DNA from: Reyranella sp. CPCC 100927
GTDB lineage: Bacteria; Pseudomonadota; Alphaproteobacteria; Reyranellales; Reyranellaceae
Direction of reading: 5' to 3'
Length of the DNA stretch: 64,000 bases
Assembly: GCF_007859315.1 (NCBI RefSeq)
Contig: NZ_VOHA01000006.1
Location: 62,001 to 126,000, forward strand
Part shown: one piece after another, positions 56,201-63,355 of the stretch
How positions within the stretch are numbered: position 1 is the first letter of the stretch
How the letters are laid out: each line of letters starts with the position of its first letter
Translations under genes and position numbers: made by a program
The notes under the pieces: model-generated
Told to the model about the DNA's origin: nothing
Database searches by the model: none
Seen by the model: the letters and a program-made list of their open reading frames with translations, nothing else

Positions 56201-57832
56201 TTACGCGGTCGGCAGCGTGTAGTCCTTGAACGTGCGGCGCAGTTCGGTCTTGAGGACCTTGCCGGTGGCGCCGTGCGGGATGGCGTCGACGAAGGCCACG
56301 TCGTCGGGCAACCACCACTTGGCGACCCTGTCCTTCACGAAATCCAGGATGTCCTGCTTGCCGGCATTGGCGCCGGCCTTCAGCTGCACGATCAGCAGCG
56401 GCCGTTCGTCCCACTTGGGATGCTGGATGCCGATCACGGCAGCCTCGGCCACCGCCGGATGACCCATGGCGGCATTCTCCAGGTCGATCGTGCTGATCCA
56501 CTCGCCGCCCGACTTGATCACGTCCTTGGAGCGGTCGGTGATCACCATCGAGCCGTCCGGCTCCAGCTTCGAGACGTCGCCGGTGTGGAACCAGCCGTCC
56601 TTGGTGAACCCGGCGGTGCCTTCGCCTTTCATATAGCCGTTCACGATCCACGGACCGCGCACCAGCAGGTTGCCGCTGGCCTTGCCATCCTTGGGCAGAT
56701 CGTTGCCCGCGTCGTCGACGATCTTCATCTCGACGCCGAACACGGGACGGCCCTGCTTGGCCTGGATCTCGAAGCGCTGCTCGTCAGGCAGCGCGCGCTC
56801 GCCGCGGTTGAAGCGGGTGATCGTGCCGACCGGGCTCATCTCGGTCATGCCCCAGCCGTGCACCACGTCGGTGCCATGCTCCTTCCAGAAGCGGGAGATC
56901 ATCGCATGCGGTACGGCCGAGCCGCCGATCAGCGTGCGCTTCATCTTCGACAGTTTCTTGCCGTTCTGCTCGCAGTAGTTCAGCAGGGCGAGCCACACGG
57001 TCGGCACGCCGGCACTGACGTCGACATCCTCCGAGTCGAGCAGCTCATACACGCTGGCACCGTCAAGGCGAAAGCCGGGGAACACCAGTTTGCAGCCGCT
57101 CATCGGCGCGCCGTACACCAGGCCCCAGGCGTTGGCGTGGAACATGGGCACGACCGGCAGGATCGTGTTGTCGGGGTTGAGCGCCAGCACCGGCCCGCTG
57201 GTCATCATGATGGAATGCAGCACGGTCGAGCGATGGCTGTAGAGCACGCCCTTCGGGTTGCCCGTCGTGCCCGACGTGTAGCAGAGCGACGACGCGGTGC
57301 GTTCATCGAAGGTCGGCCACGCCAGCGTGCCGGGCTTGTCCGCGATCAGCTCCTCGTAGCACAGCAGGTTGGCGATCTTGCTGTCCTTGGGCATATGGGC
57401 GCGATCGGTCATCACGATGACATGGCGCACGGTCTTGAGCTGGCCGATCACGGCCTCGACCACCGGTACCAGGTTCAGGTCGACGAAGATCACCTGGTCT
57501 TCGGCGTGGTTGGCGATGTAGGCCACATGCTCGGGCGACAACCGCGGATTGAGCGTATGCAGAACGGCGCCGATGCCCGACACGGCGTAGTAAAGCTCGA
57601 AGTGACGGTAGCCGTTCCAGGCCACGGTACCGACCCGGTCGCCCAGCTTGATGCCGAGGCTCTGCAGCGCCTCGGCCAGCTTCTTGGCGCGGTGATGGGC
57701 GTCGCGATACGTGTAGCGATGGACCGGCCCTTCAACGGCGCGCGATACGATCTCGACGTCGCCATAGTACTCGGCTGCGAAGTCGATGATCTGAGAAATC
57801 AGGAGTGGACGATCCTGCATCAGCCCCAGCAT
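56201..57832 (-). CDS. long-chain acyl-CoA synthetase, tandem copy 2
   Basis: A 543-aa AMP-forming acyl-CoA synthetase. It starts [20 protein letters not shown] after GGGAGCCACCC. The P-loop-like motif is [20 protein letters not shown] near residue 178, followed by [20 protein letters not shown] and the core [12 protein letters not shown], and the C-terminal hinge and Lys in [19 protein letters not shown]. Very similar in sequence and length to the gene 49 nt upstream, so the two arose by tandem duplication. Members of this group act on medium to long or branched acyl chains. It is followed immediately by the ClpP-like membrane protein. Confidence 0.94.
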
Positions 57833-57881
57833 GGGTGGCTCCCTGTGGTTATTCCGTTGAACGTCATGGTTCGCTTGGCCA

Positions 57882-59513
57882 TCACGCCGTCGGCAGCTTG
57901 TGGCCCTTGAAATCCTCGCGCAGCTTGGTCTTGAGAATCTTGCCGGTGGCGGTGTGCGGGATCGATGCGACGAAGGCGACATCGTCGGGCAGCCACCACT
58001 TGGCGACCTTGTCCTTGAGGAAGTCGATCAGCGTGTCCTTGTCGACATCAGCACCGGGCTTTTTCTGGATGATCAGCAGCGGCCGCTCGTCCCACTTGGG
58101 GTGGTGTATGCCGATCACCGCGGCTTCGGCGACCGCGGGGTGTGCCATGGCGGCGTTTTCGAGATCGATCGAACTGATCCACTCGCCACCTGACTTGATG
58201 ACATCCTTGGAGCGGTCGGTGATCTGCATGTAGCCGTCGGCGTCGAGCGTGGCGACGTCGCCGGTGGGGAACCAGCCGCCGTCGCGCAACGGGCTGCCGC
58301 CCTCGCCGCGGAAATAGCCCGACGTAATCCACGGCCCGCGCACCAGCAGATCGCCGAACGCCTTGCCGTCGCGCGGCAATGCCGTGCCGTTGTCGTCGAT
58401 AATCTTCATCTCGACACCGAACAGTATGCGCCCTTGCTTGGCGCGCACTGCGTCCTGTTCTTCCTTGGGCAGCGACGGGTGCTTGGTCTTGGGTGTGTTG
58501 ACCGTGCCCAGGGGGCTCATCTCGGTCATGCCCCAGGCGTGCAGCACGTCCACGCCGTAGTCGCGCTTGAAGGTCTCGATCATCGCCGGCGGGCAGGCCG
58601 AGCCGCCGATCACCGATTTGCGCAAGGTCGACAGCTTGAGGTTCTTGGCCTGCAGATGCTGCAGCAGGAGCAGCCACACCGTCGGCACGCCGGCGGTGAT
58701 GGTGATGCCCTCGCTCTCGAACAGCTCATACAGGCTGGCGCCGTCCAGCGCCGCACCGGGGAACACCAGCTTGGCGCCGGACAGGCAGCCGGAATAGGGC
58801 AGGCCCCAGGCATTGACGTGGAACATCGGCACCACCGGCAGGACCGTATCGCGGGCCGAGATGCCGATGCCGTCCGGCAGCGCACTGGCGTAGGCGTGCA
58901 GGAGGGTCGAGCGGTGATGGTAAAGCACGCCCTTGGGATTGCCCGTGGTGCCTGAGGTGTAGCAGAGCGAGGAGGCCGTGCGTTCGTCGAACTGGGGCCA
59001 CTCGAACGTCCCGGGCTTGTCGGCGATCAGTTCCTCGTAGACCAGCAGGTTGGGAATGTTCAGGTCGGCCGGCAGATGGGCACGATCGGTCATCGCCACG
59101 ATGTGGCGCACTGACTTCATCTGTGGTGCGAGAGTCTCGACCAGCGGCAGGATGTTGATGTCGGCGAAGAGGATCTGATCTTCGGCGTGATTGACGATAT
59201 AGGCGATCTGCTCCGGAAACAGGCGCGGGTTGATGGTGTGGCACACGGCGCCCATGCCCGAGATGCCGTAATAGAGCTCGAAATGCCGGTAGCCGTTCCA
59301 GGCCAGGGTCCCGATCCGATCGCCCGGCTTGATGCCGAGCCCCGTCAGCGCCTCGGCCATCTGCTTGGCCCGCTTGTGCGCGTCCTTGTAGGTGTAGCGG
59401 TGGATCGGCCCTTCGACCGTCCGCGAGACGATTTCGGTGTCGCCGTGATAGTCGGCCGCGAAGTCGATGAGCTGCGAGATCAGAAGCGGGCGATCCTGCA
59501 TCAAGCCCAGCAT
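57882..59513 (-). CDS. long-chain acyl-CoA synthetase, tandem copy 1
   Basis: A 543-aa acyl-CoA synthetase, same length and start as its neighbour ([20 protein letters not shown]). The AMP-binding motif is [20 protein letters not shown], then [35 protein letters not shown] and [18 protein letters not shown]. The first half is nearly identical to copy 2, the middle is most diverged, suggesting different chain specificity. It heads the three-gene leftward operon with copy 2 and the ClpP-like membrane protein. RBS GAGAACGCCGC is weak but adequate. Confidence 0.94.
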
Positions 59514-59618: not shown

Positions 59619-61469
59619 CTAAAGACTGGCCTGTACCCTGTAGAGGCCGGCATAGGTGCCGCCGGCGGCAAGCAGGGTCTCGTGGCTGCCCTGCTCGACG
59701 ATCCCCTGGTCGGTCAGGACCAGAATCCGGTCGGCATTACGGACCGTCGACAGTCGGTGGGCGATGACCAGGGTGGTGCGGCCCTGCGCCAGTTTCAGCA
59801 AGGCCAGCTGGACCGCCCGCTCGCTCTCGTTGTCCAGCGCACTGGTGGCCTCGTCGAAGATCAGGATCGCGGGGTCTTTCAGGAAAGCCCGGGCGATGGT
59901 CAGCCGCTGCTTCTGGCCGCCGGACAGCTTCACCCCACGTTGCCCAATATCGGTGTCATATCCTTTCGGCAGGGCCATGATGAAATCGTGGGCATGGGCA
60001 GCCTTGGCCGCCTCGATCAACGCTGTATCGCCGGCCTCCGGCCGCCCATAGCGCAGGTTCTCGGCAACGGTGCCCGAGAACAGGTAGACGTCCTGCTGGA
60101 CGACGCCGATGTTCCGCCGCAACGACGACAGGGTGACATCGCGGATGTCGACGCCATCGACCAGAATGGCGCCCCGCGTTACCTCGTAGAAGCGGGGGAT
60201 CAGGGAGCACAGCGTGCTTTTGCCGACCCCCGACGCGCCGACCAGGGCGACGAACTCCCCGGGCCGGATATCCAGCGACAGGTTGTTCAAGACGTGCGGG
60301 CCGTCCTCGTCGTAGCGGAAGGCGACGTCGCGGAAGGTGAGCGCCCCGCGGGGCTCCGACAGGACCTGGGCGCCGAGCCGGTCCGTGACGTCCGGCGCCA
60401 CCTCGAGGATTTCCATCACCCGGACGAAGCCGGTGAAGCCCTGCTGCCAGAGGCGCACGAAGTTGGCCAGGCGCTGGACCGGGTCGACGAGCACCGCGAC
60501 GCACAGCAGGAAGGTCAGCATGTCCGCCACGCTGAGTTCGGCGTGCAACACCCGCACGGCGCCGATCACGATGACGCCGACCGTGATGATCTGGGCGAAG
60601 GTGATGGTGCCCACCGAGAAGAAGGCCTCGCTTCTGTAACCCTCCTTGCGGCTTTCCAGGAACCTGACGTTCTCGGCGTCGAAACGCCGGTTCTCGAGAT
60701 CCTCGTTGGCGAACGACTTCACGACGCGAATGCCGGCCAGCGAGTCTTCGACGCGCTCGTTGATGGTCCCGATCTGCTGTCGGCTGCGCGTCAGCGCCCG
60801 GTTCATCCGGCCGTTGAAGTGCAGGGCGTAAAGAACGGCAAACGGCATGACGCCAAGGATCAGCAGGGTGAGCGGCACGTCGAGGTGGGCCAGGATGATC
60901 ATCACGCCGACGAACTTCAGGACGGCGATCGCGATATCCTCTGGCCCGTGATGATAGAGCTCGCCCAGGGCCAGCAGGTCGTTGGTGATGCGGCTCATGA
61001 GCTGACCGACCCGCTGGCGGTCATAGAAGCTGAACGACAGCTTCTGGCAGTGCTCGAACACCTCCTTGCGCAGGGCGCTTTCCATTTTCGCGCCCATGAC
61101 GTGGCCCTGGTAGTCCACGAACAGGGTGCTCAGCACCTGGATCGCCAGCAGGGCGAGCATGATGGCGCCCATGCCGTAGATCTGGTTCAGCGCATCGGGC
61201 ACGTCGTTGAGCGCGACGAGGCGCTTGGTGATGTGATTGGCGCACAGGGGCAGGAAAAGCGCCGTCAGCGACACGACGAGCGCGCAGGCCACGTCCGCCA
61301 GCAACAGCGGCATGTGAGGCCTGTAGTAGGAGAGGAACTTCTTCAGCCGATGGCGGAAGCGAACGGCTTCGGACGCCGGCGTGGCGTCTGCAGGGCTGTA
61401 TGCTGAAGAGGTCCGGTCGCTAAGAGCGGCGTCTGGGCGCGCCTGATCCTTCTGGATTCGCGTAAGCAT
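59619..61469 (-). CDS. ABC exporter, fused membrane and ATPase domains (MsbA-like)
   Basis: A 616-aa half-transporter that works as a dimer. The membrane domain (about 45-335) has six hydrophobic segments, with coupling region SFSFYDRQRVGQLMSRITNDL. The ATPase domain has Walker A VGASGVGKST near residue 405, VVQQDVYLFSGTVAENLRYG, signature LSGGQKQRLTIARAF and Walker B ILIFDEATSALDNES. It resembles the lipid/multidrug exporter group but the substrate cannot be told. The gene stands alone on the minus strand, divergent from the SDR at 61710. Confidence 0.93.
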   Translation of the reverse strand: MLTRIQKDQARPDAALSDRTSSAYSPADATPASEAVRFRHRLKKFLSYYRPHMPLLLADVACALVVSLTALFLPLCANHITKRLVALNDVPDALNQIYGMGAIMLALLAIQVLSTLFVDYQGHVMGAKMESALRKEVFEHCQKLSFSFYDRQRVGQLMSRITNDLLALGELYHHGPEDIAIAVLKFVGVMIILAHLDVPLTLLILGVMPFAVLYALHFNGRMNRALTRSRQQIGTINERVEDSLAGIRVVKSFANEDLENRRFDAENVRFLESRKEGYRSEAFFSVGTITFAQIITVGVIVIGAVRVLHAELSVADMLTFLLCVAVLVDPVQRLANFVRLWQQGFTGFVRVMEILEVAPDVTDRLGAQVLSEPRGALTFRDVAFRYDEDGPHVLNNLSLDIRPGEFVALVGASGVGKSTLCSLIPRFYEVTRGAILVDGVDIRDVTLSSLRRNIGVVQQDVYLFSGTVAENLRYGRPEAGDTALIEAAKAAHAHDFIMALPKGYDTDIGQRGVKLSGGQKQRLTIARAFLKDPAILIFDEATSALDNESERAVQLALLKLAQGRTTLVIAHRLSTVRNADRILVLTDQGIVEQGSHETLLAAGGTYAGLYRVQASL

Positions 61470-61709: not shown

Positions 61710-62477
61710 ATGGCATCGCCGCTTTTCGACCTGACCGGCAAGGTCGCCATCGTCACGGGCTCGAGCAAGGGCATCGGCAAGTCGATCGCCGAGCAACTGG
61801 CGCTGCAGGGCGCCAAGGTGGTGATCTCCAGCCGCAAGGTGCCCAATTGCGAAGAGGTGGCGGAAGGCATCCGCAAGCAGGGTGGTCAGGCGATCGCGGT
61901 GGGCTGCAACATTTCCGAGAAAGCACAGCTCGAAAAGCTGGTGGCCGAGACCCGCAAGGCGTTCGGGGCGATCGATATCGTCGTCTGCAACGCCGCGTCG
62001 AACCCGTACTACGGACCGACCGAGAAGATGCCGGACGAGGCCTTCACCAAGATCATGCAGAACAACATCCTGTCCAACATCTGGCTGATCAACCTGTGCC
62101 TGCCGGACATGCGCGCCAAGAAGGACGGTGCCGTGATCATCGTATCCTCGATCGGCGGCCTGCGCGGCACGGCGGTGCTGGGTGCCTACGGCATCTCCAA
62201 GGCGGCGGACATGGCGCTCACGCGCAACCTCGCCATCGAGTTGGGCCCCGACAACATCCGGGTCAACGCGATCGCCCCGGGGCTGGTGAAGACAGATTTT
62301 GCACGAGCGCTGTGGGAAAATCCGGAGTACCTCGGCAAGCGCCTGCGGTCGGCGCCGCTGCGCCGGATCGGCGAGCCGGATGACATCGGTGGCATCGCCG
62401 TGATGCTGGCGTCGAAGGCCGGCGCCTTCATCACCGGGCAAACGATTGTCGCCGACGCGGGCGTCACCATCGCCTGA
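61710..62477 (+). CDS. short-chain dehydrogenase/reductase, DHRS4-like
   Basis: A 255-aa NAD(P)-dependent reductase. The cofactor motif is TGSSKGIGKSIAEQLALQGA near residue 13, ISSRKVPNCEEVA gives NADP preference, and NAASNPYYGPTEKMPDE follows. Catalytic Ser is in IVSSIGGLRG and Tyr-Lys in YGISKAADM. The late IRVNAIAPGLVKTDFARALW is typical. It is close to carbonyl reductases of the DHRS4 / peroxisomal type that act with fatty acids and quinones. The ATG at 61710 follows GGAGCACCATCC. A gene-free region follows. Confidence 0.93.
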   Translation: MASPLFDLTGKVAIVTGSSKGIGKSIAEQLALQGAKVVISSRKVPNCEEVAEGIRKQGGQAIAVGCNISEKAQLEKLVAETRKAFGAIDIVVCNAASNPYYGPTEKMPDEAFTKIMQNNILSNIWLINLCLPDMRAKKDGAVIIVSSIGGLRGTAVLGAYGISKAADMALTRNLAIELGPDNIRVNAIAPGLVKTDFARALWENPEYLGKRLRSAPLRRIGEPDDIGGIAVMLASKAGAFITGQTIVADAGVTIA

Positions 62478-63079
62478 TGTCGCCACGAGCGCAAATTGCA
62501 CCCGGCCGTCAATGGTCGAGTTTTTGTTATATATATTAATGTGTTAATAGAGAAATCTGAGGTGACTTATAAGATTAAGATTTATGGCGCTAAAAATTGT
62601 CCGTGAAGGGGTATTGATGAGTCCGTCAAAGAGGCGTTAATTTATGGCTGATGCAAGGCTTAGTTGTTAGGGCGTTGCTAAAAATAGCGCCCTGAAAGGA
62701 GCCGGAACGCGATTCCATTTGAGAGATCAGGTGAGGGCGATTAGCCTTCATCCTGTCGAGGGAGCGGTCAGACCGGTTTGGTCATTTGACCGGAGGATCG
62801 ATAGACGGGCGCCCACCCATATTCCCTTTCCCCCATACTCGGGCGTTTGTTGATCGGTTTTCAGCCGCGAAGTCTTCTCCCTCTACGTCATTTTGAGAAG
62901 TCATAGTCACGAGGATGGTTGATGGCGGACTGGGTGGTCCGCGGCGATAGCGCCGAATATCCTGCCACTCTCTGGGTGCCGTTTCCCGCCGATTTGCGGT
63001 TGTTGGTACCTATCTGACTTCTCCTGATATGCGTAGCGTTGTGTAAAAACCAGTGAGCGTACCCTCTCTAGGCAAACCA
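62478..63079. other. gene-free stretch with an unusually AT-rich part
   Basis: I find no credible gene here. 62519-62660 is strikingly AT-rich for this genome, with TTTTTGTTATATATATTAAT at its start, and might hold promoters or recent insertion. A hairpin GGGC-N3-GCTA-AAAA-TAGC-GCCC lies at 62670-62692. The rest has no repeats of the three palindromic families. Confidence 0.5.
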
Positions 63080-63355
63080 GCGCGCCGTACGCACGCGGCG
63101 CGCCGGCGAGGCAGTCTGGATCCGGTCCCCCGGCTGGATCTGGCGCCGGTTGGTCCCCCTGGGACCCCAGTAAGGTATTCTGCGGTGCACCGAACGCACG
63201 CGGTGCGCGCAATGGGTGGTTGGTCCGGTTCCCCGGCTGGGTCGGCCGCCTGCAGCCTCTTCCCGGAGGCTCGCAGCGAGTAGCGCCACCGCGCTGGCGG
63301 CGCTCCTGTAGAGGCGGCGCACCCGTTCCCCGGCGGGTGGCCGCCTCATCTTTTT
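63080..63355 (+). ncRNA. candidate structured RNA: duplicated hairpin unit plus terminator
   Basis: Two related units of about 104 nt follow each other. Each has an 8-bp hairpin with an ACGCACG loop (63080-63103 and 63185-63208), then CCGG-T(C/T)CC-CCGG inside longer stems (63119-63140 and 63221-63243), then a third hairpin (63152-63166 and 63254-63271). Stem bases differ between units but remain paired. A strong rightward terminator ends the block. No reading frame explains it. Transcription and function are inferred. Confidence 0.5.
63311..63355 (+). terminator. strong intrinsic terminator, rightward
   Basis: GAGGCGGC-G-CACCCG, an 8-nt loop TTCCCCGG, CGGGTG-GCCGCCTC (14 pairs with one bulge), followed by ATCTTTTT. 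No plus-strand protein gene precedes it within 830 nt, so it probably ends a non-coding transcript. Confidence 0.75.

Follow-up and report, generated by a model that had tools for sequence, protein, structure and literature searches.

A 64,000-nt stretch of the genome of the soil bacterium Reyranella sp. CPCC 100927, here called the window, carries on its plus strand, between two genes, an array of hairpins (63080-63355) that closes with an intrinsic terminator. The structure of this RNA, its conservation, its strand and its terminator are established below, and it is highly probable that the array is a selected RNA. From the sequence, the 275 nt noted in a preliminary description of this DNA are probably just the 3′ half of the transcript. 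We slightly favor, by analogy with known RNAs, a stand-alone, lineage-specific, trans-acting regulatory RNA whose several C-rich loops would pair with G-rich mRNA sites.

Structure, conservation and duplication of the hairpin array

The plus strand at 63080-63285 holds two units of about 104 nt with start positions 105 nt apart, each containing three hairpins, as the preliminary description had it (Table 1). The first stem is GCGCGCCG/CGGCGCGC with loop TACGCACG in unit 1 and GTGCACCG/CGGTGCGC with loop AACGCACG in unit 2, giving a loop consensus of (T/A)ACGCACG. The second hairpins of both units present a C-rich loop, and so do the third, which read GGTCCC-CCT-GGGACC in unit 1 and GCCTCTTCCCGGAGGC in the other unit. 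The repeats include D2 (27 nt, 85% identity, spacing 103) and D3 (22 nt, 86% identity, spacing 105), and a third, related copy of 16 nt lies within the terminator, a strong, long, rightward hairpin that was likewise correctly described as the last of the array. The folding energy of the 291-nt array region is -162.9 kcal/mol (z = -2.64). Paired changes in the first stem had also been reported: one pair does change on both sides, from G-C to A-U, but it is the only such pair in the window, accompanied by one wobble change from C-G to U-G. Because this covariation is thin, the strength of the argument comes from the relatives.

Table 1. Features of the locus (window positions, plus strand)
Feature	Position	Strand	Basis or remark
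Terminator-like hairpin of SDR gene	62503-62518	+	between SDR gene and RNA
Candidate sigma-70-type promoter	62719-62747	+	TTGAGA-N17-TAGCCT, putative
5′ rod domain, 134 nt	62754-62887	+	C-rich apical loop ACCCATATTCCCTTTCCCCCATACTC
Variable linker	62888-63079	+	poorly conserved in sequence and length, alignment of relatives
Unit 1 hairpin 1	63080-63103	+	loop as in text; repeats, fold, pooled covariation
Unit 1 hairpin 2, C-rich loop	63116-63144 (limits approximate)	+	fold; repeat families D1/D2
Unit 1 hairpin 3, GGUCCC-CCU-GGGACC	63152-63166	+	fold
Unit 2	63180-63276	+	consensus fold and covariation, four genomes
Closing stem P1 of unit 2	CTGCG 63180-63184 / CGCAG 63272-63276	+	invariant in four genomes
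Hairpin 1′ of unit 2	63185-63208	+	enclosed by P1; loop as in text
Hairpin 2′ of unit 2	about 63214-63252	+	enclosed by P1; loop CCCC
Hairpin 3′ of unit 2	about 63254-63271	+	enclosed by P1; loop UCCC
Hairpin P5, AGCGCCACCGCGCUGGCGGCGCU	63282-63304	+	almost invariant
Intrinsic terminator hairpin	63311-63355	+	CCCC loop, tail ATCTTTTT

Each of the four sequenced Vineibacter genomes, the window's genome included, has one copy of the array region, with DNA identities of 84%, 80% and 76% to the other three; the nearest named relative is V. terrae CC-CFT640 (L040). The same SDR gene lies upstream of the array in all four, and the downstream gene is different in L023. We aligned the core (63180-63355) from the four genomes over six helices and 63 pairs, of which eight are changed on both sides while 96.8% of cells remain paired. 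This level of covariation was reached by none of 500 shuffles, and slid structures, used as controls, pair in only 39-48%. When hairpin 1 was pooled from both units (seven copies, four genomes), 100% of cells were paired and three pairs were doubly changed (six cells); the terminator, which was also called in the relatives' loci, carries a C-G/U-A double change in two of the four genomes. These counts are small because there are only four homologues. Core identity is 83-88% in close pairs, as against 64-76% at the third codon positions of the two flanking genes, and 78-81% to L023. Homologues with preserved pairing, whose absence the preliminary description had named as evidence against its proposal, were therefore found within the genus, and their pairing in all four genomes together with conservation above that of third codon positions speaks for a structured RNA under selection rather than for coding or random DNA. 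The plus-strand core folds with z = -3.2, -5.3, -5.5 and -3.3 in the four genomes; the minus-strand fold is weaker in three and slightly stronger in L023. The plus strand keeps many G-U pairs whose minus-strand counterparts would be A-C mismatches, indicating that the plus strand is the RNA strand.

A covariance model built from unit 2 and the terminator only (R1) recovered unit 1 in the window with 35.4 bits when the search was local and free of filters, although unit 1 went unlisted when the whole window was searched with default filters. R1 also recovered unit 1 in L041 (45.5 bits, E = 1.9e-6) and in L040 (31 bits, E = 9e-4). Since a model of one unit finds the other in the window and in two relatives, the origin of the two units by duplication is well supported. 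In L023, unit 1 is without its first hairpin.

The 5′ rod and the probable extent of the transcript

Upstream of the array, three of the four genomes share a second conserved block (62690-62940), which includes the rod. The apical loop of the rod, 25-26 nt long, C-rich and nearly invariant, stands open atop the same apical stem in the three genomes. Four rod pairs show double changes (46 of 500 shuffles), a modest covariation explained by the availability of only three sequences. In L023 the rod is missing and a 7-bp closing hairpin remains at the equivalent place. The linker between rod and array evolves fast and varies in length between close relatives; it is nearly absent in L023, which has only short blocks, such as TCATAGTCAC, in common with the window.

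The candidate promoter of the window ends 7 nt before the first rod base. L130 and L131 have TTGAG[AG]-N17-TAGCTT at the corresponding place, and TTGAGG-N17-TAAGAA was read by eye about 8 nt before the hairpin of L023. The −10 box in the window is weak, and a default generic promoter scan gave no call, but the spacing brings the promoter into agreement with the predicted start and with the first base that pairs. Rightward transcription from this promoter would start at about 62755 and end at 63355, so that the transcription unit probably measures about 600 nt, and about 310 nt in L023. The transcript of the V. terrae CC-CFT640 homologue is predicted to run from GUCGAGGGAG to the U-tract, about 630 nt. 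The rod and array domains could, alternatively, be two separate RNAs.

Distribution and comparison with known RNAs

An Rfam scan, one of the checks proposed in the preliminary description, matched the array to no family: cmscan of the window against Rfam 15 gave no match at the gathering threshold (best sub-threshold E = 2.6), the rod alone gave nothing up to E = 5, and the homologues scored at most 23.3 bits where the threshold is 40. The tRNA/tmRNA scan returned none, and no publication that we found describes such an RNA in Vineibacter or Reyranella. Elsewhere in the window, two adjacent and similar long open frames on the minus strand (56201-57982 and 57882-59513), acyl-CoA synthetase-like and possibly a tandem duplication, adjoin an ABC-transporter-like frame (59619-61469).

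A covariance search of the wider alphaproteobacteria had also been proposed; it yielded the homologues within the genus and none that was convincing outside it. In large-scale scans whose stricter filters may lose weak matches, R1 was confined to the genus among 75 genomes of the family, 76 of the order and 289 of the class, its one match outside the genus (E = 0.42) being taken as chance, and a model of the rod (R2) found only three genomes of the genus among 75 genomes of the family and 240 of the class. Outside the genus, the surroundings of relatives of either SDR gene gave no convincing array copy (best 20.9 bits). In the sister genus g5 (L137, L139, L140, L142), the corresponding gap between the two SDR genes, downstream of the first, contains a promoter-like TTGAC[AG]-N17-[CT]A[AG]TTT and a leader that is conserved and includes a C-rich hairpin. 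It also holds the gene of a small, conserved, membrane-like protein of 41 aa (MFVAADSPKVRKFVTPFVEIGIALAFVMLAVPASLRVITIA), which has no Pfam match and was not found in genus g1, and an apparent ClpP gene on the opposite strand. Homology of the Vineibacter RNA to this promoter/small-ORF region is not claimed: the position is the same and the promoter spacing similar, but a profile search found no sequence similarity.

Several bacterial RNAs present C-rich loops. GsrN of Caulobacter acts through one (PMC5869019), and the Vineibacter RNA resembles it in being alphaproteobacterial, in its narrow distribution and in a conserved, exposed C-rich loop, which in GsrN pairs with G-rich mRNA sites (PMC5869019). 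GsrN acts through a single C-rich loop in its 5′ part and has general-stress genes nearby, whereas the Vineibacter RNA has an SDR neighbor, is much longer and carries several such loops. General-stress promoters of the EcfG type have the motif GGAAC-N15-19-CGTT. No match to this motif was found near the locus (62-63.4 kb), and a GsrN-like general-stress sRNA was rejected on that ground. PmaR of Agrobacterium acts through a C-rich loop and, compared by description, is like the 5′ rod in its long stem and large single-stranded C-rich loop; a repeated hairpin array, as in the Vineibacter RNA, is not part of the description consulted (PMC6234868). The Vineibacter RNA may thus be functionally like GsrN or PmaR, a likeness drawn from description, with no kinship to either claimed. 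The 6C RNA has two C-rich loops (PMC6582537) but is actinobacterial, and its model had no match in the window at the Rfam threshold and none at E up to 10. CcsR1 (RF02791, the CCUCCUCCC motif RNA), studied in Rhodobacter, has a conserved C-rich motif; cmscan aligned it weakly to 63269-63349 (E = 7.8), and membership was rejected because the score of 12.1 bits falls far below the gathering score (65.3).

Possible function and alternative explanations

The loops rank with the best-conserved parts of the RNA, and UUCCCC is invariant in hairpin 2′ and the terminator in the four genomes. These conserved C-rich loops, together with the alphaproteobacterial precedents GsrN and PmaR, favor a base-pairing regulator. 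The rod would present a 26-nt C-rich loop, and further (U)UCCCC loops would come from the duplicated module and from the hairpin of the terminator; most likely, the C-rich loops would pair, in several mRNAs, with G-rich stretches that lie within or close to the ribosome binding site, and so alter the translation or stability of these mRNAs. The GC-rich stems would hold the loops exposed and protect the RNA, and the (A/U)ACGCACG loops may be sites for a protein or for targets of a second class. UUCCCC is imperfect as an anti-Shine-Dalgarno sequence, and C-rich loops in a high-GC genome follow in part from composition. As to an independent transcript with an intrinsic terminator, which would define the functional class, the terminator is present and conserved and the promoter, like the transcript limits and the pairing mechanism, is putative.

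At slightly better than even confidence, we rank this base-pairing regulator well above the view that the array belongs to a long, structured 3′ UTR behind the SDR gene, which would stabilize or terminate the mRNA or be processed to a 3′-UTR-derived sRNA. The preliminary description had seen no plus-strand gene before the array, which is incorrect: the SDR gene (61.7-62.477 kb, ending at 62477, about 600 nt away) lies on the strand on which the array terminates and is the sole upstream neighbor kept in all four genomes. A 3′ UTR is nevertheless unlikely, because the SDR stop codon is directly followed by a terminator-like hairpin both in the window and in L131 (an equivalent strong terminator at 1563-1584), although none was called there in L130 and L023, because a conserved promoter-like element sits between the SDR gene and the rod, and because SDR orthologues elsewhere in the family occur without the array. 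We give a little less credit still to an RNA that would mainly sequester a protein, with the repeated AACGCACG and UUCCCC loops as copies of its binding site. Identical loops repeated on covarying stems are the pattern of multi-site protein-binding RNAs, and duplication of the module is compatible with dosage of such sites; on the other hand, we can name no RNA-binding protein for the loop motifs, and GGA loops of the CsrA type are not exposed on the plus strand.

The GC-rich inverted repeats and their regular spacing might also be those of a DNA-level element, either dispersed palindromic repeats or protein-binding palindromes. This appears very improbable, since the kept G-U pairs and the terminator tail point to RNA; dispersed repeats in particular were rejected, as the array is a single locus per genome and other matches in the same genome are short and close to what chance would give. 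Two open frames, 76 and 93 aa long, do run over the array (63053-63283 on the plus strand and 63068-63349 on the minus strand), but indels between close relatives are often not multiples of three, which argues against coding, and substitutions in the core track pairing rather than codon position, leaving a protein-coding region with hardly any probability.

Returning to the RNA as a whole, we propose, tentatively and at less than even confidence, that it represents a new class of two-domain RNA of about 600 nt, in which a rod with a C-rich loop is joined to a tandemly duplicated module that would multiply identical pairing or protein-binding loops, and whose size varies about two-fold within the genus as the rod and hairpin 1 of unit 1 are lost or gained. 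The locus provides a well-delimited, covariation-supported candidate RNA outside every Rfam family, whose loops suggest possible targets, and would offer an example of a regulatory RNA enlarged by duplication of a loop module inside one genus.
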